A stretch of DNA of 64,000 bases. Source: Prescottella soli. Lineage in GTDB: Bacteria > Actinomycetota > Actinomycetes > Mycobacteriales > Mycobacteriaceae. Shown piece by piece: positions 17,594 through 50,032 of the stretch; position 1 is the first letter of the stretch; every line of letters starts with the position of its first letter. The DNA lies in the NCBI RefSeq assembly GCF_040024445.1, contig NZ_CP157276.1:1674001-1738000 (forward strand), in the 5' to 3' direction. The notes beneath the pieces are model-generated. The model did no database searches. It was not told the DNA's origin and was given only the letters and a program-made list of their open reading frames with translations. The translations under genes and the position numbers were made by a program.

Positions 17594-18361
17594 GCCGTAC
17601 CGCTGAACACCTGCACCCCATACTGATTCGTGGTCCGGAGCATTACTTCGGCCGAGCCTCTGCTCGTCCTCACGCAGGCCGACGGCCTAGAGCCGCGCGA
17701 TGAGGGTGTCGCCCGGCCACACTCGTGAACCGAACCTGCCCCGCGCGACGGTGGCGCTTCACTTGCTGTACGTCGTGTGCGCCGGGTCGGCCTTGGGGAG
17801 TGCAAGAGCGTTTGCCGGATAACACGGGTTAGCCAGCAAACCCGCGTGTTCGCCACGCGGTCGATGGCGCCGCAGTTGTGAATCGTCATCGTAGTTGGCG
17901 GATGGTCACCATAGTTGGCGAAGTCGTCACCATAGTTGGCGAAGGGACGTCACGTCACACCGTCGCTCGAGCCCGGATCAGGCGCACGTCATCACAGCGC
18001 CCCCTCGATCGGCGACCCCACCGACGGCACTCGACACCCGCGGCATCGGCAGGCCGCGGGCACGATCACTTGAGCCAGTTGCCGATGTCTGAAATATCGC
18101 AATATTTGTTATCGGCCGCCGAAGATGACGAATTGCATTGGATGCACGAACTCGTGACTCCCTGCTAGTCGTCTATGAAACCGGTTGTGCGCTACGCCTT
18201 CCGGGAGACGGCCCGTTCGCGGATTGCTGTCAGGATCAGTGTGCGTTGACGTAACCTGAGCAGCTTTGACCTGCATTCTCCCGCCGGATCGATCATTTGA
18301 TGCAAGAGTCCATCGCCAATGGCGTGGTGGGCGCGGGAGGATGATGAACGAGTCCTGGTCC
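17594..18361. other. Gene-poor gap with an IS-end-like site array
   Basis: No open frame here has convincing protein character. The only clear structure is the phased array at 17877-17941, annotated separately. The gap separates the hydrolase terminator from the minus-strand gene that ends at 18362. Confidence 0.5.
17877..17941 (-). repeat. Three phased 16-bp sites, left-end-type copy of the dispersed repeat
   Basis: After TGTGAATC, the site GTCAYCRTAGTTGGCG occurs at 17885-17900, 17905-17920 and 17926-17941, that is every 20-21 bp (two helical turns). The reverse complement of the first site equals the right-hand part of the repeats at 21646, 23561 and 36462. Multiple phased terminal sites after TG are typical of IS21-family ends. 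No transposase gene follows. Confidence 0.6.
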
Positions 18362-19582
18362 TCAGGCCGGGGCGATACCGAGTTCCGCACCCACGTACGA
18401 CATGTCGTCGACGCCCTGGAAATTCGAGAATGCCTCGATAGCAAGCTCGTTGGGATGTGCCACTCCAGCGACGTCGCGCAAGGTCACCATTGTCCGAACG
18501 GCCAGTTCGTGCATGGTGGGATGTGTGGTGCCCCTTCCGGCCGGCGGGCCCAGCCAGATCGGCGCGTCGACAGCCCCGTGATGATCGGGCGCCCACTGCC
18601 ACCCGAGAACGCTCATCAGCCGGTCGATTTCCTTCAGGTCCGATCTTGCAGCATCCCCGAAACCGCACTCGCTGTCGATGTCACCACCGGAGTTGTAGAA
18701 CTGTACGACAACCTGCTTGTTCGGTCCCTGTCGAGGGACATCCAGGATGACATTGCCCAGCCACGGCAAAGTCGCCAGAACCCACTCGAACCGCGTGACG
18801 AACTCGTCCCACCCTGAGCACCGTGCCGGAAGGCCGGACAACGTCGGACGGTCGGAAGCGACCTCGCCCACAGCCTGTGTGCGGGTGGGGCCGAAGTTGT
18901 TGTAAGAGCTGACACGGAGCCGGTCAGGAGTCGTACCTAATCCGTCGCGCAACACCGCGACGATTGCAGCGGCGATCTCGTGTCGTTGGTCGTCGGCAGT
19001 GTGGCGCCATCCCGTTCTCCACTCCCGCGCATACTCCTCGACACGCCGGCCCCCGTGTTCGACGTCGTGATCGCGGCCGATACGGATTTCGACAGGCGTC
19101 CACAACGGCTCGTCGAGTGCCACCCAGCGCCCGGACTCACGGTCACGGACCTGGGAAAACAAGGTGGTCCGCTGCGACTGGATCACCGCCCGTAATCGGG
19201 CAGCCGTCACCGGTTCATCGGGCACCGTCACCCTGATATCAAGCCCTTTGTCATCCTCCCTGAACAGGATCCGCTGCCCGGTCAACGTGTCGCGCAGCTG
19301 AAGGCTGTCGCCATCCTTCGGCGAAATCAGCGTCTCGTTGTCATCCCAGTCCGGGTACAGCACCAGTTGGATGTCCTCAAACAGACTGGTCCAAACGTCA
19401 TCAGCCACAACCACTCCCCGTTTCCGAAACCTCCCGACAAACCTACCGACACGCCCCGACACGTACGTTTCCGACGCCAACAAACCATCCGCCTCGGCGT
19501 GGCCGGACGACGAGAGTTGGCGGCGAGTCTCAGTGCCGCCGTCCCAACCCTCAGTGCGGCCGTTTGAACCAGAGGCCGGCAC
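18362..19582 (-). CDS. TY-Chap/YbjN-like domain protein, function unknown
   Basis: Up to 406 residues from GTG 19582; the real start may lie 30-60 codons further in (near VVVADDVWTSLFEDIQLVL), because the first stretch is low-complexity. The C-terminal part (WDEFVTRFEWVLATLPWLGN, ...VVVQFYNSGGDIDSECGFGD, LMSVLGWQW, MHELAVRTMVTLRDVAGV) resembles the actinobacterial TY-Chap N-terminal domain, related to secretion-chaperone/YbjN folds. The middle (VEIRIGRDHDVEHGGRRVEEYAREWR) is unassigned. It has no signal or TM segment. Lower GC than the core genes and no operon partner suggest it belongs to the accessory region. Confidence 0.65.
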   Translation of the reverse strand: MPASGSNGRTEGWDGGTETRRQLSSSGHAEADGLLASETYVSGRVGRFVGRFRKRGVVVADDVWTSLFEDIQLVLYPDWDDNETLISPKDGDSLQLRDTLTGQRILFREDDKGLDIRVTVPDEPVTAARLRAVIQSQRTTLFSQVRDRESGRWVALDEPLWTPVEIRIGRDHDVEHGGRRVEEYAREWRTGWRHTADDQRHEIAAAIVAVLRDGLGTTPDRLRVSSYNNFGPTRTQAVGEVASDRPTLSGLPARCSGWDEFVTRFEWVLATLPWLGNVILDVPRQGPNKQVVVQFYNSGGDIDSECGFGDAARSDLKEIDRLMSVLGWQWAPDHHGAVDAPIWLGPPAGRGTTHPTMHELAVRTMVTLRDVAGVAHPNELAIEAFSNFQGVDDMSYVGAELGIAPA

Positions 19583-19598
19583 TCCTCCGACACCGGAG

Positions 19599-19773
19599 AA
19601 TCACGAGGGGGTCGGTGGCGAATTGGGTGAGGAAGCGGGTCTGGTCGTGGCCGGGGCCGTCGAAGGCAAGGTGGTTGAGGCCGGCGTCGAGGTAGAGCTT
19701 GATGGCGTTCCTAGGTCGCTCGGGGTTGGTTAGCCCGAACGGCAGTGCCAGTGATGGCAGGCCGAATTCGTCA
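19599..19773 (-). pseudogene. C-terminal fragment of an LLM-class oxidoreductase
   Basis: The reverse frame reads EFGLPSLALPFGLTNPERP and then AIKLYLDAGLNHLAFDGPG, HDQTRFLTQFATDPLVILR. This matches the usual tail of luciferase-like oxidoreductases. It has neither a start region nor a stop at the expected place, and the frame continues into the neighbouring gene. It is a remnant. Confidence 0.5.
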
Positions 19774-19852
19774 CAGTTGAATTCGTCGCGTTACCACTAA
19801 TCGACCGATGAATTAGGGCGGTCGCCGACACAACGGCTCATGGGGATCGTGA

Positions 19853-20461
19853 ATGATCCGAGCTGTGGTGGACATACCCGAGCCAGCGCGAGACGCCCGC
19901 ACACGTCCCGGCACCCCCCCCCCGCTGCCGGTCCGTGACGCCGGAACCGACCACCAGCTCCACGACTTCGCCCGCGAATGCGCCGCCCGCTACACCGCCG
20001 CGAAGGGCCGAGACACCGCCGCCGCCAACCCGATCGGAGCCGCGATCCGCGAGTACCGCGACAGCCTCGCCGCACTCGACACCGACCGCGTCCACAACGC
20101 CACCACCGCCGCATTCTGCGCCGACCTTGCCAACGACATCACCGGCAACCGGTCGGTGTGGCGCCTGAGCCGACTACTCCGACGCGCGGCTTCCGCCGAC
20201 GTCGACCCGGTCAACATGCTCCGCTGGCACGGCCAACGGATCACCGACAACGACAACGACATCACCGCCCTCGACAGCCTCACCGGCCCCCGGCCGGCGA
20301 ACGGCGAAGCCGCGGCCGACTCGCTCGCCATCGAACGACGCCGCGCCGAGTACGAGCGTGCCCGAAGTTCATCGGAACAGGCCGCCGAGTCGAACCGCCG
20401 GCGGATTGACCCGGTCACCAAGCCGGAGGAACCGAACCTCGGCCCGCGGCGACGCATCTAA
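19853..20461 (+). CDS. Hypothetical protein with a C10 homopolymer
   Basis: 202 residues, helical and charged, with no signal or TM segment. Readable core: HQLHDFARECAARYTAAKGRDTAAANPIGAAIREYRDSLAALDTDR and LANDITGNRSVWRLSRLLRRAA. The style is that of a plasmid or mobile-element accessory protein, but I do not recognise the family. Ten consecutive C (19914-19923) sit near codon 22, so the first 20 residues could belong to another frame, or the run may allow slippage. A hairpin follows at 20516-20534. Confidence 0.5.
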   Translation: MIRAVVDIPEPARDARTRPGTPPPLPVRDAGTDHQLHDFARECAARYTAAKGRDTAAANPIGAAIREYRDSLAALDTDRVHNATTAAFCADLANDITGNRSVWRLSRLLRRAASADVDPVNMLRWHGQRITDNDNDITALDSLTGPRPANGEAAADSLAIERRRAEYERARSSSEQAAESNRRRIDPVTKPEEPNLGPRRRI

Positions 20462-20515
20462 CTCCGACGGCCCCAATTTCGCACATCCATTTCACTATTC
20501 AGATAACATGCGCAA

Positions 20516-20534
20516 GCCGCCCGTACCGGGCGGC
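20516..20534 (+). terminator. Short strong hairpin
   Basis: Arms GCCGCCCG and CGGGCGGC with a 3-nt loop, 55 nt after the stop of the hypothetical gene ending at 20461. Confidence 0.5.
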
Positions 20535-20720
20535 ATAAACCAAGTGCCACGGGGCATTTCGAAGGGGAACGGTGCTTGACCACGAAACGGACCCGGCGGG
20601 CGACCGACGCGTTCCACGAGCGGACGTTATGCGGCGATACCGCATTTGACCCTCGAAGCGTCAGTGGCAGATCCGACATCCCGAAATGTCGCGAGTCGCG
20701 CCGTTGAGAAAAGGAACAGC

Positions 20721-21311
20721 ATGAGATCTACCCGCACCCGCCTGATGCTCGCGGGGGCCGGGCTTGCTGCGGCAGCTGCCGCCGCCGCAACGGCTCTGGC
20801 GCCAACCGCCTCGTCTGACGTCATTGGCTATGACCCGTATGGCGCTGTGAGCCTCACAGTTATCGGTGACACCTTCCACGTCGGCGGAACGTACACCGCG
20901 ACGGCCACACATAATTTCGTCTGTGGAATGGGGGTTCGGTTCTACGTCGTGACTAGGGGGCCGGGCAACTATGTTGAGGAACTGGGCACCGTCCCCAGTG
21001 CAGGTTGCACAGCCACCATTCAGTGGACCCCAACCCACGAGGGCACGGCCTACTTCCACGCAAACGGTCTGGGCGGTGACGCCGCCGCCGTCGTGACTGT
21101 GCTCAGCGCCGATCTCGGGCCGACCACAACCACAACCACGGCTCCGACCACAACCGAAGCTCCAACCACAACCGAAGCTCCAACCACAACCGTGGCTCCA
21201 CCTACCACCACAGCCCCGACCACAACCGAAGTTCCAACCACGACCGTGGCTCCACCTACAACAACGACAGCGCCGAAGGTTCCAACCGGCTCCAGCTACG
21301 GTTCCAGCTAA
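20721..21311 (+). CDS. Secreted protein with Thr/Pro-rich repeat tail
   Basis: 196 residues from ATG 20721, preceded by AAAAGGA. The Ala-rich signal peptide (LMLAGAGLAAAAAAAATALAPTASS) leads to a beta-sandwich, Ig-like stretch (about 35-130: VSLTVIGDTFHVGGTYTATATHNF, CTATIQWTPTHEGTAYF) with two Cys likely disulphide-bonded. The tail is a low-complexity run of TTTEAP/TTTVAPP units encoded by near-identical DNA repeats, and the protein ends SSYGSS. Such mucin-like tails may be glycosylated wall spacers. There is no LPXTG or membrane anchor. It is monocistronic. Confidence 0.7.
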   Translation: MRSTRTRLMLAGAGLAAAAAAAATALAPTASSDVIGYDPYGAVSLTVIGDTFHVGGTYTATATHNFVCGMGVRFYVVTRGPGNYVEELGTVPSAGCTATIQWTPTHEGTAYFHANGLGGDAAAVVTVLSADLGPTTTTTTAPTTTEAPTTTEAPTTTVAPPTTTAPTTTEVPTTTVAPPTTTTAPKVPTGSSYGSS

Positions 21312-21536
21312 GTTTGCCTGCCGTTCGGTGGGACCTGACGCGAAGCCACGGGCGGGCGGCGATGTCGGCCATGGACGGTTCAAAGCCCAGCTTCTTCACC
21401 ACCAGCTAACCCTGCGCTTCATATTCGACTGTGTTTGGTGTGAAGCCACGCCAGGCTTCGGGCCAAACCTATTTGGTGTGACGCCGCCGCAGGGCTCGCC
21501 GCTTCCCGACCAGCTGCTGAAGTGAACACGGAGTCA

Positions 21537-21810
21537 TTCAGAGCCCACTGAGCGCGTCGCGGCCAGCTGAGCCAGATCGGCGCCTCAGGAAGGTGTTGCA
21601 TCGCCAACCTCCGCCGGCAACATGATTTGGCCAACGAACCGCTCCGAACAATTGCCAACTTCGATGACGACCATCCCGCTCTGTTCTCGTCACGATAGTT
21701 GTCGCACCGCAGGTCAGAGCCCCGGCAATTGCCAACTACGATGACGATTCACACCGGCCGCGGCTGTGAACCGTCACCACAGATGGCCATTGGTCAGGAT
21801 AGTTGGCCAC
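21537..21810 (+). repeat. Dispersed repeat, copy A (longest)
   Basis: The core starts GAACAATTGCCAACTTCGAT (21646), includes an inverted GTCACGATAGTTGTC and the shared GCAGGTCAGAGCCCCG. It ends GCCAACTACGATGACGATTC-ACA, an 11-bp spacer and TGTGAAC. Two more phased sites (21773-21788 and 21794-21809) follow. Upstream, 21537-21645 is also similar to 36352-36461. No gene in 21312-22068. Confidence 0.75.
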
Positions 21811-22043
21811 CCGCAGTCGCACGACCCACTCACGACCGCACCCGAGCCACAACCACACTGCGACGTGGTCGGTGACGCGCTGGTTGTGGGCGCTATCGAA
21901 GAACGCGGCGCCCTCGATGATCAGCCCGTCACGCAGCCGCATGAGTAGCTCGCGTCCGCGCTCAGCGTGCAGGAGACCGGAACGTTCAAGCCCCCACATG
22001 GCCTCGCTCGTCGAGGAGGAACCCAGATGGGTGTTGACTAACA

Positions 22044-22067
22044 TTGATAGTGAGTGCACACTATCAA
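22044..22067. promoter_or_regulatory. Perfect inverted repeat, TetR operator
   Basis: TTGATAGTG (22044-22052) and CACTATCAA (22059-22067), with a 6-bp spacer, end one base before the TetR start codon. This fits tight autorepression. Confidence 0.75.
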
Positions 22068-22068
22068 C

Positions 22069-22620
22069 ATGCCTGAACCGTCCCCCCCGAGGCGTCAACG
22101 CCAGTCTGCCGAGCAGCGACGAGAAGACATACTGGCGGCCGCGCTTCGCGAGTTCAGCCAGAAAGGCCTCCATGGGGGTTCGACAGTGACCATTGCGGCG
22201 GACGCCGGGGTTTCTCAGCCGAACATCTTCAGGCTGTTCGCGACGAAGAAGGAGTTGTTCATCGCGGTGCTCGAACTCGTCTCGGCGCGAATTGAACGCG
22301 AGATGCTGCGGCGCGGTGCCGGGGCAGCGGACCCACTCGCGGCAATGGAGGCCGCTTGGGCATCGCTGCTCGAGGATGGCGACTTCATGTCGATGTACCT
22401 CCAAGGATTTGCGGCGTGCCACGATGCCGACGTCCGGGCTGTCATGCAGCGAATGACCCGGCATATCTTCGAGCGGGTCGAGCGGATGCCGGGCCTTGGG
22501 GCCGCAGAGGCGCACCGCTTCTTCGCCGAAGGGCTCATCTTCATGGCCGGGGGCGTCATGAAGTTGGACGAGGAGGCGACGGACGCTGACTGGGGGCGTC
22601 GCTTCCTGCACTCCGGGTAA
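22069..22620 (+). CDS. TetR/AcrR-family repressor
   Basis: 183 residues from ATG 22069. The N-terminal HTH (RREDILAAALREFSQKGLHGGSTVTIAADAGVSQPNIFRLFATKKELF) is canonical. The ligand domain is short and contains a helix with AACHDADVRAVMQRMTRHIFERV. The perfect dyad against its start and a related dyad before the next gene (22659-22678) indicate that it represses itself and the DUF2306 membrane protein 71 bp downstream. Confidence 0.9.
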   Translation: MPEPSPPRRQRQSAEQRREDILAAALREFSQKGLHGGSTVTIAADAGVSQPNIFRLFATKKELFIAVLELVSARIEREMLRRGAGAADPLAAMEAAWASLLEDGDFMSMYLQGFAACHDADVRAVMQRMTRHIFERVERMPGLGAAEAHRFFAEGLIFMAGGVMKLDEEATDADWGRRFLHSG

Positions 22621-22658
22621 GTCCTTGAGGCACAAAGGTCCCTCTCTTCAAGCCTAAA

Positions 22659-22678
22659 GATAGTGATCACTCACTAGC
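22659..22678. promoter_or_regulatory. Second TetR-type operator
   Basis: GATAGTGATCACTCACTAGC repeats the GATAGTG half-site of the 22044 operator, with a degenerate right half. It lies 14 bp before the DUF2306 gene start. Confidence 0.55.
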
Positions 22679-22691
22679 ATTGGAGACGCAG

Positions 22692-23417
22692 ATGTCGACA
22701 TCGACACCTTCCCAATCCATCCACCGTCGTTGGTGGTGGGCCGGATTCATCCTGATGACCCTGTCCGCAGTGGGGATCGCCTTGTTCTCGGTGATCGCCT
22801 ATCTCTCCGGCGACCCGGCGCGGAGCCGGATTCCGATCGATCCCGAGATAGCGACGCACTACCTCTCCGTAGTGGCGCACGCGCTGCCGGCGAGCCTCGC
22901 CCTTCTGATCGGTCCCTTCCAGTTCGCGACACCTCTGCGCAACTCGTTCCCGCGGGTGCATCGCATCCTCGGCAGGGTCTACATGGTGAGCATCGTGTTC
23001 GCGACCATTGCCGCGGTATTCGCCACCGCCTTCACCCTCGACGGGGTGCCGGTGCAGGTCGGGTTCACGCTCCTCATCGCGGCATGGACATACACCCTCG
23101 TTCAGGGATATCGAACAATCCGCCGTGGCCAGGTGCAGCTGCACCGCATCTGGATGATCCGCAACTACTCACTCACGTTCGCGGCGGTGCTCCTCCGCGC
23201 GTTCCTCGGCCTCGGCCTCGCGCTGCAACGATCATTCCCGGGGCTCACGTTCGCCGAAATCTACTCATCGAGCGTGTGGGCGTCGGTCCTGATCTGCGTG
23301 ATCGTCCCGGAGTACTTCATTCTCCAGAGATCGCCCGCTCCGCGGGCAGCACCTCGGGGACGGCGGGAGAACACCCGATCGACGAACGCGGCGGCGATAC
23401 CGGTTCGATCCCGATGA
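22692..23417 (+). CDS. DUF2306 multi-pass membrane protein
   Basis: 241 residues from ATG 22692 behind GGAGA. About seven TM segments, including FILMTLSAVGIALFSVIAYL, LSVVAHALPASLALLIGPFQF and VSIVFATIAAVFATAFTL. The family hallmarks HALPASLALLIGPFQF, RVHRILGRVYM and VQLHRIWMIRNYSLTFAAVLLR include His residues that may bind haem or metal. Function is unknown. It pairs with the upstream TetR gene through shared operator motifs, so it is probably induced by that regulator's ligand. Confidence 0.85.
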   Translation: MSTSTPSQSIHRRWWWAGFILMTLSAVGIALFSVIAYLSGDPARSRIPIDPEIATHYLSVVAHALPASLALLIGPFQFATPLRNSFPRVHRILGRVYMVSIVFATIAAVFATAFTLDGVPVQVGFTLLIAAWTYTLVQGYRTIRRGQVQLHRIWMIRNYSLTFAAVLLRAFLGLGLALQRSFPGLTFAEIYSSSVWASVLICVIVPEYFILQRSPAPRAAPRGRRENTRSTNAAAIPVRSR

Positions 23418-23560
23418 GTGGCGCGCTGATTCAAGAAGCTGAGGCGTAGGTGCCCATTCTCAGGCGAGGGCGGCCGCCCTGTGATCACTTCGTCGTGATG
23501 CACCCGGCGTATTGGAGTTGGCAGTCGAAGCTGAGCATGGTTCGGACAACGAACGACCAC

Positions 23561-23700
23561 GAACAATTGCCAACTTCGATGACGACGATCGCGCCCTGTC
23601 GTCGTCACCTTAGTTGTCACACCGCAGGTCAGAGCCCCGACGAATGCCAACTACGATGACGATTCACACCGGCGCGTGAACGGTCATCGTTGTTGGCCAG
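23561..23700 (+). repeat. Dispersed repeat, copy B
   Basis: Starts GAACAATTGCCAACTTCGAT, has the inverted TAGTTGTCACACCGCAGGTC core and GCCAACTACGATGACGATTC. It is then mirrored by GTGAACGGTCATCGTTGTTGG, giving a long stem with a short GC-rich loop. Confidence 0.75.
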
Positions 23701-23775
23701 CCGGCGGATGGTGACAGGCCGCCGTCGCTCGTTGGCGCGGGTTGCGTTCCGAAGTGGGAACCTATCGGTCCGAGA

Positions 23776-24069
23776 TCATTCCGTTCGTCGACTGAATCCG
23801 CCGCAACATACTCGCGAGCAGATCACGGCGTCAGCTGCGATTCCGGACTCGGTCCTCGAAATCGTGGAACGCCAGTGCTTCACAGCCTGGGCTACTTCGA
23901 TGGTCGCGCGGGTGAGCTTGCGCAGCTCGGCGTTGTCTGAGCCGACCAGTTCGACCTCGATGTAGCGCTCCAGCCTGATCTTCGTGCTCGCGACAGGCGG
24001 CTCCGGGTCATCACCGTAAGTCTGGGCGGCATCCACCGGAGGTCGGAGTCCTTTCCACTTACAGGGCAC
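23776..24069 (-). pseudogene. Decayed gene fragment
   Basis: Within this frame, RLERYIEVELVGSDNAEL and RKLTRATIEVAQAVKHW look like genuine protein sequence. The flanks do not, and the C-terminus appears shifted. The rest of 23701-24253 has no convincing gene. It is probably a remnant of an accessory protein that I cannot name. Confidence 0.3.
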
Positions 24070-24253
24070 TCACATTGGGCGCCTTCAGGAGGCTTACTCA
24101 CAGCACATGTGGCTGGGCGCCAACACCGTCTGCCAGAGCGGGCGCTAACCAAGGCAACGGGAGTCCCACCGGATGGGCTATCGGGTTCGCACTGGTCAGC
24201 GCTTCCCAGTCAGTGGTCTGCTGGCGGGAAGTGCCGGGGGATCCCACGGAACG

Positions 24254-24919
24254 TTATTGAGGGGTCGACACTTCGGGGAGTGGAGGCAGTGGCCGGGAGG
24301 CGACGACTCGTGCCTCGTCGGGGACGACTCCGACCATGCACAACATCGCCTGGGCGAAGACTTCGTCGGTGCCGTCCTGCGTCGGCGCCGACACCACGTG
24401 ATGCAGGGTCGAGAGCAGGGCGCCGAACACGCACGCCGTGGCAATCTCCACATCGGAAATCGTGAAGCGTCCACTGTCGACGCCCTTGCGCAGGTCACGC
24501 GCTGCCCGGGGGCCGAGAATGTCGATGAGCTTCGGATGAGCCACACCGAGTCGCACCACGAACCACCCCCACAAGGGATCGCTGATCGCGTGGCGCACGA
24601 GGTGACGCAGCGACGAAGAAAACACCTCCGCAGCGTCGGGCATGTCGACGGTCATCAAATCCATTCTGGCGCCCAGTGATTCGATCGATTCCTCGGCCAC
24701 CGCCTCGACGATCTCGTCACGGGACTGGAAGTAGTTGTAGAACGTCCCGACACCCAGGTCTGCGGCTTCGGTGATGTCCGACAGGCCCACCGCGTCGACT
24801 CCGCGTTCGGCCACGAGAGCGCGTGCGGCGTCGATGAGCCGTGCCCGGGTCTTCTCGCGCCGACGCTGGTGGCGCGACGCCGGAGGGGGTGTCGCGGAGG
24901 ATTTCGACGGTGCAGGCAC
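24254..24919 (-). CDS. TetR-family regulator divergent from the hydroxyquinol operon
   Basis: 221 residues. The HTH (REKTRARLIDAARALVAERGVDAVGLSDITEAADLGVGTFYNYFQSRDEIVEAVAEE) begins near residue 22 after a Ser/Pro/Arg-rich leader. The C-terminal domain contains VRLGVAHPKLIDILGPRAARDLRKGVDSGRF. Its 150-bp divergent spacing from the FAD hydroxylase gene suggests control of the catabolic operon, with an aromatic substrate or intermediate as the expected ligand. The intergenic region has only a weak dyad (GAGCGAAGA and TTCTTGCTC, 24973-25005). Confidence 0.88.
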   Translation of the reverse strand: MPAPSKSSATPPPASRHQRRREKTRARLIDAARALVAERGVDAVGLSDITEAADLGVGTFYNYFQSRDEIVEAVAEESIESLGARMDLMTVDMPDAAEVFSSSLRHLVRHAISDPLWGWFVVRLGVAHPKLIDILGPRAARDLRKGVDSGRFTISDVEIATACVFGALLSTLHHVVSAPTQDGTDEVFAQAMLCMVGVVPDEARVVASRPLPPLPEVSTPQ

Positions 24920-25069
24920 ATCGCAAACGCTACGCGATCGCCCCGCGAGCAGGGCGGGGATGGGTCACGGATGAGCGAAGACCCATAAATGAGTTCTTGC
25001 TCAATGTTGACGACTGTGTCACTCTTGTTTCATTCCTATGACCCAGCTCACTCTCGAAGAGGACGTGCA

Positions 25070-26701
25070 ATGACGGACACCCAGACGGCTCGCACCGAGG
25101 CCGCCGCATACGACACCGATGTGGCAGTGGTGGGCTGTGGCCCCGTCGGGACGCTGCTGGCCGTGCTGCTCGGTCAGCGCGGTCACCGAGTCACGATCGT
25201 CGATAAGTGGCCCGCTCCGTACGCACAGCCCCGCGCGGTCACCTACGACCACGAGATCGCCCGCATTCTCGCGATTCTGGGCATCGATTCGGACAACGAT
25301 CCGGCGGTCGAGTACCACGACGATCTCTACTACTGGCGTAACGCCGAAGGGGAAGACCTCCTCGAGGTCGACTGGAAATCCATCGCAGCATCGGGGTGGC
25401 GCACGCGGTACTGGTTCTCCCAGCCCGAACTCGAGAAGCGGCTTCGTGAGATCGCCGCGACCTTGCCGAGCGTGACGATGCTGCGCGGCTGGACGGCGAC
25501 CGACCTCGAGCAGAACGACGACGCGGTCGTGCTGACCGGTCAGGTCACCTGCACGAACGGCGACTCGGCCACCGAGGTGATCCGGGCAAAGTACGTCGTC
25601 GGGGCGGACGGTGCCAACAGCTTCGTTCGTACGGCACTTGGCCTGGACTTCGCCGACCACGGATTCTTCTTCGACTGGCTTATCCTCGACATGATCATGC
25701 CGGACATCTCGGGTCTCGATCTCGGCCCGACGCACTGGCAGCTGTGCGACCCGGCCCGGCCGACGACGATCGTCCCGGGCGGACCCGGCCGCCGCCGCTG
25801 GGAGTACATGGTGCTGCCCGGGGAGGACCCAGTGGAACTGGCCTCCGAGCAATCCGCGTGGCATCTGCTCGAACCGTGGGGCGTCACCCCGGCCAACGCC
25901 GAACTCGAGCGTTCTGCGGTCTACCGATTCCAGGCACGGTGGGCGGAAAACTGGCGCAATGGCCGTGGACTGATCGCGGGCGATGCCGCACATCTGATGC
26001 CGCCGTTCGCCGGCGAGGGTATGTGCGCGGGCCTTCGGGACGCCTTGGCCCTGGCATGGCGCCTGGATCTCGTGCTGTCGGGCAGATCCAGCGACGACGT
26101 GCTCGATACCTATGGGACCGAACGCAAGGGGCACGTCCAGCACTACATCGACTTCTCGATTCGCCTGGGCAAGATCATCTGCATTTCCGACGCCGACGAC
26201 GCGGCTGCCCGGGACCAGCAGATGATCGCCGAACTCGCCGCCTCCGACGGCACCCCGGTCGACACCGACATGGCCTCGCTCGGACCAGGCCTGTGGCATT
26301 CGGGTACCGCTCATGCCGGGGAACTGTCCGTTCAGGGCGTCGTGGAGGCGAATGGCCGACGGGGCCGATTCGACGACGTCGTGGGCCGAGGCTGGACCGT
26401 GATCGGCCGGGGTGCATCCACCGCGGACGTGCTCACCGACGAGCAGCGCCGCCTGTGGGACCGTCTGGACGGACGCTATGTCCGGATCGGGCCGGCGGGT
26501 GCCGACTGCGACGTGGTCGACGTGGACGGCACCTACGGGAGGTGGCTCGACGAGATCGGCGCCGACTTCATGATCCTGCGCCCCGACTTCTACGTCGCGG
26601 CCACCGCCCCCGACGCGGCGGCACTGCGGGACTCACTCGGCACGATTCTCGACGGGCTGCATTTGACCACCACCGATCGCGCACCGGTCACGACCCGATG
26701 A
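25070..26701 (+). CDS. FAD-dependent aromatic hydroxylase (resorcinol/MhpA-like)
   Basis: 543 residues from ATG 25070. It is a class A flavoprotein monooxygenase. The Rossmann motif is [20 protein letters not shown] (about 18-37), the DG motif [10 protein letters not shown] (about 178-187) and the GD motif [19 protein letters not shown] (about 300-318), with a thioredoxin-like C-terminal domain. It uses NAD(P)H and O2 to hydroxylate a phenol. Downstream hydroxyquinol dioxygenase and maleylacetate reductase imply that the product is hydroxyquinol, so resorcinol or a related phenol is the likely substrate. MhpA-type 3-hydroxyphenylpropionate hydroxylase is the alternative by sequence style. Confidence 0.85.
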
Positions 26702-26715
26702 AGAGAGCTGTTCCC

Positions 26716-27780
26716 ATGAACCTGAATTTCGATCACGTCACGCTCGGACAGCGGGTGCTGTTCGGATCTGGACGCGCTGCCGACAGCCTCGCCGACGAGG
26801 TCGCCCGGCTCGGGGCCCGACGGGTCATGGTCGTCGCGTCCCGATCCGAAGCCCGAGTCGCCCAGGCGGTCACGACACACATCGATGTGGCCGTGTTCCA
26901 CGACGACGTCGCCCCGCACGTTCCGATCGCCAAGGCCGAGTCGGCACGTGCAGTTGCGGTGGACAAGGCTGTCGACCTGCTGGTGTGTGTCGGCGGCGGC
27001 TCGACCACCGGGCTGGCCAAGGCCGTCGCCCTGGCGACGGGACTGCCGATCGTCGCCGTGCCCACCACCTACGCGGGCTCCGAGGCCACCAACGTGTGGG
27101 GCCTGACCGAGGCAGCCCGTAAGACCACGGGCGTCGACGACCGGGTGCTGCCCGTCACGGTGATCTACGACGCGCACCTGACGCTATCGTTGCCGGTGGA
27201 ACTGTCGGTCGCGTCCGGCCTCAACGGCATGGCCCACTGCATCGACTCGATGTGGGCGCCACGCACCGACCCGATCAACCGCGCCCTCGCCGCCGAGGGC
27301 ATCCGGGCGCTCGCCGAGGGACTGCCCGCGATCAAGGGAGATCCGCAGGACGTGAGCGGACGCGAGCAGACCCTGTACGGCGCGTACCTGTCCGCGGTCG
27401 CGTTCGCGTCCGCGGGATCGGGTCTGCATCACAAGATCTGTCACGTCCTCGGCGGCGCCTACAACCTGCCCCACGCCCAAACCCACGCGACGGTCCTGCC
27501 ATACGTCCTCGCCTTCAACGCCCCCGCCGCACACGAGGCGGAGCGGAGGATCGCCGCGGCGTTCGGGACGGGTACCGCGGTCGCGGGACTGAGCTCGCTG
27601 CGGGCGACGCTCGACGCCCCCCGAGCCCTGAAGGACTACGGGTTCGACGAGACGCAGATTCCCGAGGCCGTGGAGTTGATCCTGCCCGTCGTCCCCGATT
27701 CCAATCCCCGCCCGGTGACCGCCACCGATCTGGAAGCGCTCCTGCGCGCAGCCCATGCAGGCGAAACCCCCGTGCTGTGA
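26716..27780 (+). CDS. Maleylacetate reductase
   Basis: 354 residues from ATG 26716 (an in-frame ATG at 26698 overlaps the upstream stop as ATGA). Iron-alcohol-dehydrogenase fold: nucleotide motif [19 protein letters not shown], substrate loop [14 protein letters not shown], and metal-site histidines in [12 protein letters not shown] and [12 protein letters not shown]. It reduces maleylacetate to 3-oxoadipate with NAD(P)H, the step after hydroxyquinol ring cleavage, and sits directly between the hydroxylase and dioxygenase genes. Confidence 0.92.
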
Positions 27781-27793
27781 AAGGAACACGAAA

Positions 27794-28699
27794 ATGACCA
27801 CTCACACCGAAGCGCCGATCAACCCACAGCAGCAGGCACTCGAGGACGAACTCGTCGCCACCGTCGTCGCATCGTTCGACGCCGCCCCCAACCCGCGACT
27901 GAAGGAAGTCATGCAGTCGCTGACCCGGCACCTGCACGCATTCATCCGCGACGTTCGGCTGACGGAAGCAGAATGGAACACGGCGATCGAATTCCTCACC
28001 GCCGTCGGGCACATCACCGACGACAAGCGCCAGGAATTCGTCCTACTCTCCGACGTCCTCGGCGCATCCATGCAAACCATCGCCGTCAACAACCAGGCAC
28101 ACAAGGGCGCCACCGACGCGACGGTCTTCGGTCCGTTCTTCGTCGAGGATGCCCCCGAGATCCCGCTCGGCGGTGACATCGCCGGTGGCGCCTCGGGGCA
28201 GCCGTGCTGGGTCGAAGGCACCGTCACCGACACCGACGGCAAACCGGTTCCCGGCGCCCGCATCGAGGTGTGGGAGTGCGACGAGGACGGATACTACGAC
28301 GTGCAATACACCGACGAGCGGGTTGCCGGTCGCGCGCACCTGTTCACCAACGACCAAGGGCAGTACCGGTTCTGGGGCCTGACACCGGTGCCCTACCCCA
28401 TCCCTCACGATGGGCCGGTCGGCAAGATGCTCGAGTCCGTGGGCCGTTCTCCGGTCCGTGCGGCGCACCTGCACTTCATGGTCACCGCCGACGGTCTACG
28501 TCCCCTGGTCACGCACATCTTTGTCGACGGCGATCCGCAGATCGACATCGGCGACAGCGTCTTCGGGGTCAAGGAGTCACTGATCAAGGAATTCGCGGTG
28601 CAGGCGCCGGGATCTCCCACCCCGGACGGCCGTAGCCTCGGCGACCGCACTTGGGCGCGAGCGCGTTTCGACATCGTCCTCGCCCCCGCAGGCGTCTGA
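27794..28699 (+). CDS. Hydroxyquinol 1,2-dioxygenase (intradiol)
   Basis: 301 residues behind AAGGA. The N-terminal helical dimer domain (about 20-115) is followed by the intradiol beta-core. Fe(III) ligands match the family: Tyr168 (GYYDVQY), Tyr201 ([10 protein letters not shown]), His225 and His227 (AAHLHFMV), a constant offset of 4 from the actinobacterial hydroxyquinol enzyme. It cleaves 1,2,4-trihydroxybenzene to maleylacetate. Context favours hydroxyquinol over catechol as substrate. Confidence 0.92.
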
Positions 28700-28745
28700 C
28701 AACGCGCACGTTGCCGCTCACCTTCCGAACAGATTAGGACATCAC

Positions 28746-37758: not shown

Positions 37759-38059
37759 CCTGTCAGACTTCCAGCAGGTCGCACACCCAACGGTCCAGCA
37801 CCACAGCTGTTCCCCCATCGCGGCTGCGCATGATGGCGGCGGCGCCGCAGGCTCCCACCCGACCGGGGCAGGTAAGGGATGACAGGTGACAGCGGCACCG
37901 CAGCAGCCGACGACCTTGCCGCCTGTGACAACTGCCACTACCATGGCAGCAGGTTGAAACAGTCAGCCGATGCTGGAGCACTTGCTCGTATCGGCGCTGT
38001 CGCGGATTCCACACCTCGATCACCGATACGAGTTCCTCGAATATCGGGAGTGACGCGAC

Positions 38060-38335: not shown

Positions 38336-38547
38336 CTGGAAGGGCCGCGGACGCGGGTGTCGCCCGCCACCTCACTACCGAGCCCGACCGCAACCAGATG
38401 ACCAGCCCCCACGCGAACCGACCGGCCTCACGGCAGATCGTCGGGTCAGTGGGCTACTTCCTGATGATCAGCGAGGCGTGAACGTCGTTGTGAATGGTGC
38501 GAGAATTGCCACGTGGCCAGGAACAGCGACGAGCCAGTGCAGTCGTG

Positions 38548-39165
38548 ATGACCGAACGGCTCGAACGGGTTGGGAGCTTCTGCTACTACCTCGACGGCGA
38601 TCGGTGGGAGTGGTCGGACGCGGTCGCCCGCATGCACGGCTACGAACCCGGCCAGATCGTCCCCACCACCGCTCAAGTGCTCGCGCACAAGCATCCCGAC
38701 GACCGCGAAAGCTCGGCGGACCTGATGCGGCGGGTCCTGCAGGACGGCGAACCATTCAGCAGCAGGCATCGAATCATCGACACCACAGGCAAAATTCACT
38801 ACCTCGTCGCCGTCGGTCAACGCACCACGGCCGACGGGCGCGTCGTCGGGATGTCCGGCTTCTACATCGACGTCACCGACTCCATCCGCAGCGACGTCGA
38901 CCGCACCATCACCGAGAACATCTCCGCATTCATCGAGTCCCGCACCGTCATCGAACAGGCAAAAGGCGCGCTGATGGTGATCTACGGAATCTCCGCCGAC
39001 CACGCCTTCGACGTCCTCACCTGGAAGTCTCAACAATCCAACGTCAAACTCCGTGTCGTAGCCGAAGAACTGGTCGCAGCACTCCCCACCGCCCTCGACA
39101 TCCCCTTCGACGTGCGCGGAACCTTCGATCGCATCCTCCTCGCCTCCGGCCGGCAACCGACCTGA
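38548..39165 (+). CDS. PAS-ANTAR RNA-binding regulator
   Basis: 205 residues from ATG 38548 (38494 also possible). A PAS/PAC sensor (about 5-115: FCYYLDGDRWEWSDAVARMHGYEPG, HPDDRESSADLM, GKIHYLVAVGQRTTADGRVVGMSGFYIDVTD) precedes an ANTAR domain (about 135-185: VIEQAKGALMVIYGISADHAFDVLTWKSQQSNVKLRVVAEEL). ANTAR domains bind two-hairpin RNAs to antiterminate transcription. Rhodococci and mycobacteria have many such orphan proteins. The target RNA is not identified here. Confidence 0.9.
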   Translation: MTERLERVGSFCYYLDGDRWEWSDAVARMHGYEPGQIVPTTAQVLAHKHPDDRESSADLMRRVLQDGEPFSSRHRIIDTTGKIHYLVAVGQRTTADGRVVGMSGFYIDVTDSIRSDVDRTITENISAFIESRTVIEQAKGALMVIYGISADHAFDVLTWKSQQSNVKLRVVAEELVAALPTALDIPFDVRGTFDRILLASGRQPT

Positions 39166-39407
39166 AGCAACAGGCAACCAAGAAAGTACGCAGCCCCGAA
39201 ATCGCGAACCTTCGGCCCCGACCTGCAGCCTGCACCTCCCGCCCTCGCGCCGCCGACCGGCCACTCTGAACCGGCGGCCACAGTCACCGATCCACAAACC
39301 ATCTATCCCACCCAACGCAAAACAGCCAATGTCCTCTCACACCCAAGCCATGAGTGCGAGAGCCAAGCCGCACCGCGTGAAAACGATCGACCACACTCAC
39401 AAGCGGA

Positions 39408-39432
39408 ACCGGCCCGCTGGTGACGGGCCGGT
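39408..39432. terminator. Hairpin between converging units
   Basis: ACCGGCCCG / CGGGCCGGT with a 7-nt loop, between the PAS-ANTAR gene and the minus-strand gene-tail remnant at about 39445-39475. The surrounding 39166-39956 has no other supported gene. Confidence 0.5.
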
Positions 39433-39956
39433 CCCCCGCATCAGACCGGATCGAACCTCGGAACCGCCGGGGCGAGTTGCCGACGAGAGCAGCGGCGATT
39501 CATCGTGGTTTACCTGCATAGATGACACGTCCCCCGCCGACTTCCGCTCCCCCATGGGGTGCCTCGTGGCGACTGTGGTTCAACTCTCGAACAGACCCGC
39601 GCCCATGTTTCCTCCCGCCTCCATCTGGTGGGGCGTCGACCGCCGCCGGGGCCCTCAATTCCATGCCGGAAACCGGAACGCGTGCAGGTCAGAGCCTTGT
39701 CACCGACCGATCGACCCCGTCTTGAGCCCGACGAAAGAGCCCCACCCCCACAACTCACGCGTGCCGTCGAGACCAATTGCGAACGGGCCGAGCACACGAC
39801 ACATCACCTGTACTAGCGGCGACCTCATCGCGAGGGCGGGGTCGCAATACCATGGGGCCGGCGCTTCGAGAGCTGGCGGGTGAATCGCCCGGCATCCTGA
39901 GCTGGGAAGTTCGTCGCGGGCACGCCCTCCCGAGTCGGCGGGTAGCGTCGAGGCAC

Positions 39957-40547
39957 GTGACTAGCAGTTTTCGGATCCGGCCGGCGACGTCGAGAGACAT
40001 TGTCGATGCCGCAGAGACCCTCGGTCTTGCCTTTGCTGACTACCCGTTCACCCGGCATACCGTCGATTCACGAGATCACCGAGACCGCGTGCGGTCGTTG
40101 CAGCGACTATTTTTGACGGAGATCGGGTTGCGATGCGGAAACGTCTGGGTATCAGATGATTTGACTGCGGTGGCTGTGTGGACGACGCCGTCTTCGGCGG
40201 GTCTGGACGCGGCTTTCGGTGATATCGCGGACCAGGTCACCGATCTGTATGGTGATCGAGCGGAAATGGCTGCGAGGGCTGATGAGGCGACCGCCTGCCT
40301 GCGGCCGACGGATCCCGTCTGGTATCTGGCGACGGTGGGTGTTGCGCCTGCCTCGCAGGGTCGGGGTCTGGGTCGAGCTGTGCTCGAGCCCGGGCTGAAA
40401 GCGGCGCGGGATCAAGGTTATGCGGCGTATTTGGAGACGTCGTCTCCGTCCAATGTCACCTTCTATGAACGCCTGGGGTTCGAGGTCGTCGGAAGCGTGC
40501 CCCTGCCCGACGACGGGCCGAAGGTGTGGGCGATGCTGCGGACTTAG
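39957..40547 (+). CDS. GNAT-family N-acetyltransferase
   Basis: 196 residues from GTG 39957 (GAGG seven bases upstream), starting VTSSFRIRPATSRDIVDAAETLGLAF. The acetyl-CoA loop is VGVAPASQGRGLGRAVLEPGL (Q/R-x-x-G-x-G/A type), followed by AYLETSSPSNVTFYERLGFEVVG. The acceptor is unknown; similar rhodococcal proteins are grouped with Eis- or Rv-type GNATs. Stand-alone, followed by a decayed PLD-like gene. Confidence 0.85.
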   Translation: MTSSFRIRPATSRDIVDAAETLGLAFADYPFTRHTVDSRDHRDRVRSLQRLFLTEIGLRCGNVWVSDDLTAVAVWTTPSSAGLDAAFGDIADQVTDLYGDRAEMAARADEATACLRPTDPVWYLATVGVAPASQGRGLGRAVLEPGLKAARDQGYAAYLETSSPSNVTFYERLGFEVVGSVPLPDDGPKVWAMLRT

Positions 40548-40579
40548 GCGGCCACGGAGTTCTGTAGCTGGTCCGCGCC

Positions 40580-41360
40580 GTGAACCAGGCGCGTACCTGG
40601 GCATCGACGCCCCCGACCTGCTCCCGCTCCGCGGCGGTGACATCCTGATCGTCAACGCCGCCCACCCCGCAGTACGGGCGCACGCCAACTCACCGCCCGC
40701 TCTCGCACACTTCGTCGAGAATGGGGTGCGGGTGCTGTCGTCACCGAACCTGCACGCCAACGTCATCGCCACAACCAAGCAGGCGATCGTCGGATCTGCC
40801 GGAGCCTCACGCAGTTCCACCATCACGGACAAGGCCGTGATCATCACAGACGACCCCGAAGCAGTCGCCGCAGCCCGCACGTTCATCGACAGCATCGACC
40901 AGACCACCACCGTCGTCACGAGGTGTTCATCGCCAACGCCGCCGCTATTTGGGCGATCGGCCGAACCGTCCCGTTGCTGGGCATCGGTGGCCGGATGGGC
41001 ACTGGGCACGATCTCCTACCGACCCCAGTCGACCGGATGTTCCTGTGGCACATCACTGACCACCAGCCGGGAGCCGACGAGACACTCGCGTGGGCGGCAC
41101 ACGCGCGCCGCACCTCGGCCGGGCCGGCCGCGGAGTACCCGGCCGAATGGCTGCGAGTCGACACACTCGCTGGCCGGGGCCAGCTCGAGCGTGGTGACGT
41201 GCTCCTCCAGGTCACTGCGGACGACACCTGGATCCAGTCGTCGGCGGTCGTGGACTCCGACCCGATACCGGTTCCACACACCGCCCACGCAGTCGCGTAC
41301 CTGCCACGCATCCGCGCTGATCTGAAGCCGCTACCAGTGCCCGAAGCCGAAGCTCGACTC
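40580..41360 (+). pseudogene. Frameshifted PLD-like (phospholipase D fold) gene
   Basis: First frame: AYLGIDAPDLLPLRGGDILIVNAAH, LSSPNLHANVIATTKQAIVGSAGASRSS (an HxK-like half-motif, with Asn for Lys context) and EAVIITDD-like KAVIITDDPEAVAAARTFID. At about 40918 one base is missing and the protein continues in another frame as EVFIANAAAIWAIGRTVPLL to ...IRADLKPLPVPEAEARLADLG. The 5' end is also missing. Similar proteins are nuclease-like and occur in defence or mobile loci. Confidence 0.6.
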
Positions 41361-41557
41361 GCCGACCTCGGACCCCCCGGCTGCGCGCCGACCACCAGGT
41401 CGTCTCCCCCATCCTCCGAATGGGTAGCTTCAGTGGTGGCTTGGGATCGACCACCGCGGGTGGTCGGGTGGGAAGTTCGTGGCGCCGCGAAAGGCTTCGA
41501 CCTCGTGACGGAAGATCGTCCTCGATCGCTAAGGGGCGGTGCAGGTCGGCGCGGTTC

Positions 41558-41700
41558 TAGAAGTTCGGTCCGATTTCGATGCTGCCGACGACGGTCCCGT
41601 CCGCCGCGTATCCGGTCAGGACGGGGCGGGGGCAGGGCTGCCAGCCGCGCGGGAAATGGGCGCGCGTCGCGGCCTTCTTCGCTCGATACGCTGATGCGTG
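41558..41700 (-). pseudogene. C-terminal gene fragment
   Basis: The reverse frame ends AKKAATRAHFPRGWQPCPRP and then VLTGYAADGTVVGSIEIGPNF before TAG (41560-41558). It looks like the end of a secreted or beta-rich protein; the upstream part is missing. Confidence 0.35.
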
Positions 41701-41813
41701 CCGTCCGTCCCGTGCAGCACGGGACCCTGGATACCGTGTGAATCGGGGTCGGTGTCATGGATGCGGTGTTCTGTTGGTTGGAAGTGGCGGCGGCCGAGGC
41801 CTGATGCGCGCTG

Positions 41814-42260
41814 TCAAGCTATGGCGTCGAAGTCCATATCCATCCAGTGAATCCAGTGGCCGGACTCGTCCGGCCGCTCCCAGCAGGCCGTCATCGATGA
41901 GTTGTCCTCGGACGTCCGGAGCGTGCTGCGCATCCGTTCGCCCAGGAAGGTCCACGTGCCGTCCGTGTTCAGGCGTGCGGTCATCGTCCCGAACGTCCCG
42001 GAGCCGTCGAATGCCCGCATGGTGTACGTGTCGGTCTCGGTGTCGTGGTCGCCGATCAGCTCGAGGGCCTGTACGTGGTCGTCGCCCATCATCACGTCGA
42101 CACGATGGATGACCCACATACCGCCGGCCATCCACTCGTACTCGTCGGTGCCGGCGATGATCGCCACCTCCTGCCCATGCTCGTCGAACACCGTTCCCGA
42201 CGTCCTCCACCGTCCGATGACGCTGTCGAGCGGACGCATCGTGTCTGCGGTGGCTGTCAT
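41814..42260 (-). CDS. DUF1579-family protein
   Basis: 148 residues from ATG 42260, behind GAGAGGA. Lipocalin-like beta pattern: LDSVIGRWRTSGTVFDEHGQEVAIIAGTDEYEWMAGGMWVIHRVDV, then FDGSGTFGTMTARLNTDGTWTFLGERMRS and WERPDESGHWIHWMDMDF. Function is unknown for the family. Monocistronic. 42345-42620 has no gene. Confidence 0.8.
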   Translation of the reverse strand: MTATADTMRPLDSVIGRWRTSGTVFDEHGQEVAIIAGTDEYEWMAGGMWVIHRVDVMMGDDHVQALELIGDHDTETDTYTMRAFDGSGTFGTMTARLNTDGTWTFLGERMRSTLRTSEDNSSMTACWERPDESGHWIHWMDMDFDAIA

Positions 42261-42620
42261 TGTTGGTCCTCTCGTAATCCGCAACCCCGGGCGCCCTTGA
42301 CCTCCCCCAGCACTGCGATCGTTCCATTTCCTCAGGCGCTCCACGCCCGAAAGGCACGCAATAGTCGACTGCTCGCACAGATAGACCGGCGGCCGCGCGA
42401 GAACTCATCGGACCGGGCCCTGCTTGACGGGTGTCCTTTTCGTCAGTTTCAGAAGTCGCCGGCACACCCAAGGCGTTCTGCAGCCTGATCGGCATGCCAC
42501 TTTCAACCCTCAGAACCGTGCCACGTTGGGCTGAAGATCACAGGTCGGCGCGTCGAGCAGTCCTGCACGGACGCCATAGTCCGGCCATTCGACACAGTTC
42601 GTTCAGCAACGAACAGCCGC

Positions 42621-42735
42621 AAACAAATGCCAACTTCGATGACGACGATCGCGCCTGTCGTCGTCACGCTAGTTGTCACCTCGCAGGTCAATACACCGTG
42701 AAATGACAACTACAGTGGCGATTCTCACCGGCAGG
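42621..42735 (+). repeat. Dispersed repeat, copy E
   Basis: AAACAAATGCCAACTTCGAT, GTCGTCACGCTAGTTGTCAC, CGCAGGTCA and TGACAACTACAGTGGCGATTC. An inverted copy of the left edge (GTAGTTGGCAATTGTTC) lies at 42784-42800, so the unit is flanked by opposed edges. Confidence 0.7.
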
Positions 42736-43018
42736 TGCCTGACCCGGATCGCGTGGATGGTGCCATCTGTGATGCCGATTAATGTAGTTGGCAATTGTTC
42801 ATGCCCACCTTCCTTCCTCGCTCCCGTCTGGAACGGCGTCCAGACTGCAGCTCGGATTCGCGGCGAATGTTCGGTGTCGAATTGGCACATCTACCAACGT
42901 ATTCCGGCAAATGTCGCCGCACGACGGTCGGAGCGCAGTCAGGCAGTTGAATGATCATCACGTGAGCAGGTTCTCGAACCTGCACTCGGCCGCGCCACGC
43001 GCCACTACACTTACGGGT

Positions 43019-49009: not shown

Positions 49010-49438
49010 ATGGCCCTGCCGATTCCCTCCGGACGGCGTACTGGTGTCGTTCTCGCTCTGGCCGCTGCAACGGTTCTGATCGGTTCGGCCCCCGCCGGTG
49101 CCGAGCCCGCCAACCCGTCGACTCCTCGCGGCTACCCCCAAGCCGTCGACGACGTGCTCGGTCCGCAGGACCCCGGCTTCTGGAACCCCGATGTCCCGGG
49201 AACCCGCGTTCTGACTCCGGTCGAGCCCGGGGTGAGGGTGTATTGCGCAAACCGTTTCGAGCCGACGCCCGGGTGCTCGACACTCGATATGCGCGACTTC
49301 TCCTCGCCGCAGCGGCCCCTCGTGTTCGTCGACGTACCCGTGATCGGGTGGCCGCCACTGCGTGTGTGGACGGACGTCCTCCCCCGCTTGGACGAGGGCT
49401 CCCTCGGTCAACTGATGGAACGCTTTTTCGCTCGTTGA
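49010..49438 (+). CDS. Small secreted protein
   Basis: 142 residues. Signal peptide TGVVLALAAATVLIGSAPAGAEPA (cleavage after AGA/AEP). The mature part has one Cys pair (VYCANRFEPTPGC) and Pro-rich sequence (NPSTPRGYPQAVDDVLGPQDPGF). I do not recognise a family. A second small exported or anchored gene follows 38 bp on. Confidence 0.65.
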   Translation: MALPIPSGRRTGVVLALAAATVLIGSAPAGAEPANPSTPRGYPQAVDDVLGPQDPGFWNPDVPGTRVLTPVEPGVRVYCANRFEPTPGCSTLDMRDFSSPQRPLVFVDVPVIGWPPLRVWTDVLPRLDEGSLGQLMERFFAR

Positions 49439-49476
49439 CACCGGGCCACCATGCGGCAGCATCTAGCCTGATCATC

Positions 49477-49923
49477 ATGAGGGCGGAGAAGATGCAGGTA
49501 GCGATTCGGTGCATCCCTTTCGCCATCCTCCTCGCCACCGTCACCGCGCTTGTCTACTTCAGCCAGGAGCCGCCAGCCGCGCCGAAGCCAGCCGAAATCA
49601 CCTGGCGCTCTGCTCTACCGAGTTGCGGCGACGCGGCGCCTCGCCCAGGGACCGAGCCACAGGAGCCACTCACCCCGTCGGTGATCGACTGCCTGTCGGA
49701 CGGTCGACAACGCGACGGCGGCGAGTTCGCGCTCACCCTCTATACGACAGAGGGCGATCCCATCGTCTACTACCTACGTGCCGCGGCCGGCACGAACGAC
49801 ATCGAGGTGTTGGTCGACTCGTCGCAGGACCAGTTCGGAGGCGACCCCGGCTGGCGCAGAATCACCTGCACAATCGCCGAACTCTCGTCCGACCTGCTGC
49901 GCGACTGCATGACCAGCTACTGA
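49477..49923 (+). CDS. Small membrane-anchored extracytoplasmic protein
   Basis: 148 residues from ATG 49477. TM anchor IRCIPFAILLATVTALVYFS is followed by PPAAPKPAE and a domain with four Cys (SCGDAAP, DCLSDGR, TCTIAEL, DCMTSY), probably two disulphides: ...GGEFALTLYTTEGDPIVYYLRAAAG. Function unknown. Co-oriented with the preceding secreted protein, possibly an operon. Confidence 0.65.
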   Translation: MRAEKMQVAIRCIPFAILLATVTALVYFSQEPPAAPKPAEITWRSALPSCGDAAPRPGTEPQEPLTPSVIDCLSDGRQRDGGEFALTLYTTEGDPIVYYLRAAAGTNDIEVLVDSSQDQFGGDPGWRRITCTIAELSSDLLRDCMTSY

Positions 49924-49955
49924 GTCCCGCAGTCGCGCGAGGTCGCCCAACGACC

Positions 49956-50032
49956 GGACAAATGCCGACTTCGGTGAACCACCATCGCACGCCATCGGCG
50001 CCACACTTGTTGTCACATCGCAGGTCAGAACG
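49956..50032 (+). repeat. Dispersed repeat, degenerate copy F
   Basis: GGACAAATGCCGACTTCGGT, CACTTGTTGTCACATCGCAGG and GGTCAG keep the order of the other copies, but the right end is missing. This is the last copy before the intact genes resume. Confidence 0.6.

Follow-up and report, generated by a model that had tools for sequence, protein, structure and literature searches.

Why does one stretch of the Prescottella soli genome carry the same multi-site repeat again and again in the gaps between its genes? We addressed this question for 64,000 nucleotides of assembly GCF_040024445.1 (contig NZ_CP157276.1, positions 1,674,001 to 1,738,000; hereafter the window, whose own numbering is used throughout), in which a first-pass annotation had described a dispersed repeat family and likened it to the ends of IS21-type transposons. 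We conclude with high confidence that the repeat family represents both ends, unlike each other, of a Tn7-like (TnsABC/TniQ-type) transposon from an actinobacterial TnsA clade, and that these ends bound cargo-only units which a transposase supplied in trans would have inserted one after another. Comparison of sequences strongly supports the presence of Tn7-like ends around cargo-only units; from the arrangements described below we infer mobilisation in trans and targeting of dif, the XerCD site at which chromosome dimers are resolved.

The repeat family itself is real. A right-end profile searched against 228 kb matched the window at 21626-21766, 23540-23679, 34037-34171, 36442-36576, and 42602-42737 (94-145 bits) and, in truncated form, at 49956-50032 (49 bits; profile positions 23-98 of about 145), and the same 228 kb reversed gave no match at E ≤ 0.05. 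Searches with the short sites gave nine matches against a mean of 0.02 in dinucleotide shuffles, and five against 0.00. When the whole 5.48-Mb genome was searched, all seven places matched by the right-end query at E ≤ 0.001 lay inside the window, and the left-end query found places in the window only, besides two chance-level matches elsewhere (E 0.2-0.4); further copies were found in other Prescottella and in Rhodococcus genomes. The six copies listed in the first-pass annotation do correspond to six right ends, one of them truncated and all in a single orientation, but two of its positions (21537 and 36352) were about 110 bp too low, as GAACAATTGCC lies at 21646, 23561, 34054, and 36462. 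The supposed partial copy at 17877 is a genuine repeat of a different kind, a left-type end, and others of this kind occur at 21765 and, weakly, at 23676 (64, 43, and 17 bits, respectively). The partial copy at 42784 is a remnant, namely an inverted right-end start whose GAACAATTGCC lies at 42790 of the minus strand (fragment 42785-42805, minus strand; 14.8 bits, E 0.0099, near chance). Judged by the Pfam-supported open reading frames (ORFs), the copies lie between genes, but some are overlapped by long ORFs that lack such support.

Both ends contain multiple sites in unlike layouts, and the sites are predicted from their sequence to be of the transposase-binding type, as had been proposed. 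The right end has three 17-bp sites (about TCGTCACCATAGTTGGC) in the order minus-plus-minus. Four of the window copies space them by 33 and 44 bp, and the fifth by 32 and 44 bp, distances near whole helical turns; the conserved stretch CACACCGCAGGTCAGAG separates the second and third sites, and the terminus is TTCACA. The left end starts with TGTGAA and continues with direct sites 20-21 bp apart. On the plus strand of the window, right end 1 spans 21626-21753 (sites 21654(-), 21687(+), 21731(-); TTCACA end; 131 bits), right end 2 spans 23540-23668 (sites 23569(-), 23602(+), 23646(-); 138 bits), right end 3 spans 34037-34161 (sites 34062(-), 34095(+), 34139(-); 94 bits), right end 4 spans 36442-36569 (sites 36470(-), 36503(+), 36547(-); 145 bits), right end 5 spans 42602-42727 (sites 42629(-), 42661(+), 42705(-); 124 bits), and right end 6 (49956-50032; 49 bits) stops before its third site. 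The clearest left end, at 17877-17940 on the same strand, starts with TGTGAATCGTCA and carries direct 17-bp sites at 17883, 17903, and 17924 (20/21 bp apart; 64 bits); another begins 11 bp past right end 1 (21765-21812, plus strand; 43 bits), and a worn one lies at 23676-23699 (plus strand; 17 bits, E 0.0045). No left end was found in the stretch 36575-42727, which right end 5 closes.

Multiple comparisons indicate that the entity that moves is a left end, its cargo, and a right end, not a solo end or a miniature inverted-repeat transposable element (MITE), as the first-pass annotation had allowed; a MITE was ruled out, as the units hold one to many genes and a MITE is a short non-coding element. 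First, two left-to-right-end units are common to different genomes in different surroundings, one in G007 and G074 (1205 bp, 97.3% identity) and one in G033 and G074 (1655 bp, 97.5%). Second, window positions 34578-36575 are 96.6% identical to DNA of Rhodococcus tukisamuensis NBRC 100609 (G090), with the same right end as terminus, and positions 33189-34161 are 92% identical to DNA of Prescottella defluvii CP121458.1 (G003), where the match to this module breaks off with the final base of right end 3. Third, a search for the target duplications whose possible presence had been raised found exact 5-bp matches flanking 7 of 16 units (two in G007, two in G033, unit D of the window, and two autonomous elements) and four of five matching bases in two more. 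Finally, CCCCC stands ahead of the first left end in G033 and again at the next two right-end/left-end junctions, making three successive boundaries, and GCGGG stands ahead of the first left end in G074 and at one inner junction; the same 5 bp at successive boundaries is what repeated insertion at one spot is expected to leave.

Copies are present in 4 of the 14 genomes of the genus, and in a family-wide sample 16 of 401 genomes matched at E ≤ 0.001. The matches are strong in nine genomes (G000, G001, G003, G007, G033, G074, G090, G115, and G221), and the other seven have short candidate matches only (E 8e-5 to 1e-3). Same-orientation clusters hold five copies in 14 kb (G074), four in 12 kb (G033), and six in 56 kb (G007), the remaining copies in these three genomes being solitary. 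The right end matched nothing in a plasmid collection, and neither the left end, searched against plasmid and phage collections, nor the left-end pattern, searched against viral contigs, gave a match.

The case for a Tn7-like origin comes from relatives that carry transposase genes. The left-end pattern (≤3 mismatches) occurred in 8 of 401 genomes, with no match to the backward-read control among the matches listed, and outside Prescottella and Rhodococcus it was found in G192 and G324 only. In G192 it lies directly upstream of tnsA (NF033179, 173 bits against a cut-off of 110), followed by tnsB (Mu-transpos_C, 38.7 bits) and tnsC (TniB, 55.5 bits), in an element of 32.1 kb whose far end carries sites of the same motif and which has GACAC on either side. 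An element of 5.6 kb in G049 has tnsA (235 bits), tnsB, tnsC, and a TniQ-like gene, a right end with sites in mixed orientation, and ATGAT on either side. The right-end stretch reads CAGCTCAGAG in G049 and CCCAGGTC in G192, as compared with CAGGTCAGAG in the window family, a resemblance that is only suggestive of kinship. In G324 (locus L081, 1501-1543), a left-end-like double site has no tns gene within the surrounding 3 kb and possibly belongs to a cargo-only unit.

The window array is free of transposase genes, as had been noted. A Pfam scan of 30 array ORFs detected no transposase and no recombinase, and tblastn with 12 Tns-operon proteins from three elements found no match at E ≤ 1e-3 in the window or in the other fetched array stretches. 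Because the window units lack tnsA, tnsB, tnsC, and tniQ and the P. soli genome has no Mu-transpos_C match, these units are non-autonomous ones with Tn7-like ends, not autonomous Tn7-like transposons. Mu-transpos_C was absent from six of the nine array genomes, including P. soli, and was found in G007, G115, and G221; a search with the G192 TnsB protein (two candidates scored per genome) added a 29% identical relative in R. tukisamuensis and returned G007 again, leaving five of nine genomes with no TnsB-type match by either method. No matching ends accompanied the TnsB-like genes of G007, G115, and G221 in the stretches scanned, and 40 rve-bearing stretches of array genomes held no matching multi-site ends except L103, which is the known right end of G221. 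A search of viral contigs for a relative of the G192 TnsB found none. In the mechanism that we propose, TnsB would bind the 17-bp sites, the TnsABC proteins of an element residing elsewhere (on a plasmid, or since lost) would cut and paste the cargo-only units in trans, and a TniQ/TnsD-type factor would steer one insertion after another to a single attachment point, making units pile up.

Several observations count against this assignment. No transposase with these exact ends was found. Against the left-end profile, the left ends of G192 and G049 reach modest scores (23 bits, E 3e-5, and 21 bits, E 1e-4, respectively), and neither right end is picked out by the right-end profile above the reversed control, so the link of these right ends to the family rests on their own motif. 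The fourth gene of the G192 element (289 amino acids) matches TniQ weakly (E 0.23; 12.5 bits against a cut-off of 27) and had no relative among solved structures, and the TniQ-like match in G049 (20.9 bits) is also below the cut-off of 27. Three or fewer of the five flanking bases match in 7 of 16 units, among them units A and C of the window; the unit in P. defluvii matches at one of five, yet has GTCGCC on either side, one base out of register. Tn7 itself resists insertion near its own ends, and tandem stacking would have to evade that resistance.

A different history could have produced the same array. The units may once have been complete Tn7-like elements that inserted themselves and later lost their tns genes, leaving a ruined island. 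We consider this unlikely, even though most left ends are missing from the window, right end 6 is truncated, the spacers are irregular, and units of 9.5-10.5 kb are large enough to have held tns genes. Short units (966-1677 bp) that have a left end, a right end, and an exact 5-bp duplication are hard to explain in this way, as are the two cargo-only units that are 97% identical across species in different places, and the tblastn searches described above recovered no tns remnant.

A site-specific recombination cassette system of integron-like or Xer type, with the right end in the role of attC and the first left end in that of attI, is a very improbable explanation. Integron cassette arrays line up unrelated genes in a single direction, and one type of site closes each gene. 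The window has this row layout, with one strong left end followed by same-direction right ends and different genes between them, and dif lies near some relatives. It differs in bearing marks of transposition (exact 5-bp duplications, TGT/ACA termini), in sites that depart from the attC core GTTRRRY, and in having no integrase in the window, where none of the eight tyrosine-recombinase (PF00589) matches of the genome falls. Solo or decayed ends of the IS21 family, the first-pass suggestion, are scarcely credible. The termini of IS21 elements likewise hold several sites and are of the TG...CA type, but the relatives with the same left-end layout encode TnsA, TnsB, and TnsC. The full istA/istB element that had been envisaged did not appear, as no IstB match above cut-off lies in the window, the only one in the genome is partial (29 bits) and 1.26 Mb away, and none of the four rve matches of the genome is in the window, istA not having been searched on its own. 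Binding sites of one transcription factor across its regulon can be dismissed, as these multi-site, helically phased, intergenic copies bound mobile units that occur in different contexts across species and are present at all in just 4 of the 14 genus genomes.

Where do such units land? In four Rhodococcus genomes, the left end lies 15-16 bp beyond an identical CTGTAGCAG, upstream of the gene for a DAHP synthase. In two Prescottella genomes, the neighbour is a dif-like site. The first left end of the G007 array is 37 bp from such a site (three mismatches to consensus), and in P. defluvii the corresponding distances are 39 and 53 bp (one mismatch), with a complete unit 480 bp away on the opposite side. 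The dif-side left end in P. defluvii (locus L211, 1482-1509) has its first 14 bases (TGTGAATCGTCGTC) duplicated. For autonomous relatives, the gap to dif is 48 bp in G192, 48 bp in G049, 43 bp in G363, 38 bp in Gordonia plasmid p174, 57 bp in G087, and 75 bp in G152; for G363, p174, G087, and G152, the left end was positioned by eye from sequence. The p174 site, in Gordonia polyisoprenivorans (locus L228, 9431-9510), is dif-like with three mismatches. Five of 34 tnsB loci (203 kb) contain a dif-like site at ≤6 mismatches, and ten shuffled patterns gave none; the G363 site lies in a longer stretch, and a site about 5 kb away in G126 is not counted. The other fetched loci, 1.66 Mb in total, added dif-like sites only in P. 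defluvii and G007, beside the arrays. The window has no dif-like site, and dif of P. soli was not found in 2.62-3.02 Mb, the first 320 kb, the last 80 kb, or the window with 12-kb flanks.

We tentatively propose a transposition-run cassette system in which cargo-only units, mobilised in trans by an actinobacterial TnsABC/TniQ transposase, accumulate at one fixed attachment point and in one orientation as integron-like arrays common to Prescottella and Rhodococcus, and whose parents hunt for dif, taking the XerCD site of a chromosome or plasmid as an address; this is a serious possibility, held with appreciably less confidence than the identity of the ends. The recurrence of ends at the DAHP synthase gene and dif may instead reflect one old insertion followed by descent. 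If dif is a Tn7-like address, then landing places on chromosomes and plasmids could be predicted from their XerCD sites, and the TniQ-like proteins that the elements encode would be testable dif readers.

Comparison with characterised systems places the units near, but apart from, known elements. A survey of Tn7-like elements describes one clade that is mostly actinobacterial and whose members are not experimentally characterised (Benler et al., 2021, PMC8649781). The family studied here resembles that clade in its TGT/ACA-type ends, its two dissimilar multi-site ends, 5-bp duplication, and a putative preferred insertion place, and the TnsA of the full-length relatives belongs to NCBIfam NF033179; it differs in that units lack tns genes, can be as short as 1 kb, and are stacked head to tail, and in a right end with one inverted site flanked by two direct ones. 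Another element from the same wider bacterial group, Tn7706 of Rhodococcus erythropolis NI86/21, is described as Tn7-like with tnsA, tnsB, tniQ, and tniB (PMC12915292); unlike the window units it is autonomous, the comparison here being one of genes. IS1202-family 'dif site hunters' have TGT/ACA ends, a TnsB-like transposase, and a 5-bp duplication and insert in the same orientation beside dif/pdif (Harmer et al., 2023, PMC10132070). They share with our family those ends, the duplication, the type of transposase (here in relatives), and the dif neighbourhood, but they are 1.5-kb elements with a single transposase that insert 5 bp from the XerC site, whereas the TnsABC/TniQ-type relatives lie 37-75 bp from dif in either orientation relative to it. 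Membership in the IS1202 family was ruled out, as the array has no transposase and the relatives have tnsABC. A survey of Tn7 target selectors contains neither 'dif' nor 'XerC' as a whole word (PMC10293859), and the literature searched, which covered few subscription papers, yielded no dif-targeting Tn7-like element and no transposase-less Tn7-like array. Tn7-like elements are usually spotted by their tns genes, and ends-only units escape such surveys; those described here appear to move metabolic and regulatory genes between genera, and their arrays would represent an integron-like outcome reached via a transposase.

A tRNA-Arg(CCT) gene (16329-16403) precedes the window array at a distance of 1.5 kb. 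This gene is present in all 12 scanned loci of the genus, and left-side synteny ends there in every one except P. defluvii, which has about 2.3 kb of other DNA in place of window positions 17741-63950. The DNA past tRNA-Arg(CCT) varies by species and is likely an island hotspot. An alpha/beta-hydrolase gene (16610-17530) occurs elsewhere, without the tRNA, in G008, G007, and G001 and therefore itself belongs to the variable DNA.

Four units can be traced in the window, all on the plus strand. Unit A (17877-21753; 3877 bp) comprises the left end, cargo, and right end 1, with non-matching flanks GCAGT and CCGGC, and carries a YbjN-like/TY-Chap3 chaperone-like gene (18362-19582, minus strand) and two family-less ORFs. 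Unit B (21765-23668; 1904 bp), flanked by GCGGC and CCGGC (four of five bases matching), encodes a TetR regulator (22054-22620) and a DUF2306 membrane protein (22680-23417). Unit C (23677-34161; about 10.5 kb), whose flanking 5 bp do not match, encodes a flavin-dependent (FAD) monooxygenase (24989-26701), an iron alcohol dehydrogenase domain (in 25744-27780), a catechol-type dioxygenase (27755-28699), a malic enzyme (28746-29924), and further genes; positions 24989-29924 form an aromatic degradation cluster riding within the unit. Unit D (34173-36569; 2397 bp) runs from a TGTGAA left terminus to right end 4, has GCCGC on either side (34168-34172 and 36570-36574), and carries a diacylglycerol kinase-like gene (34946-36049, minus strand). 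GNAT, WhiB, methyltransferase, and WYL genes follow past unit D. Within the region of unit A, 18-bp tandem repeats (21109-21280) encode a Pro/Thr-rich tail that ends ORF 20646-21311.

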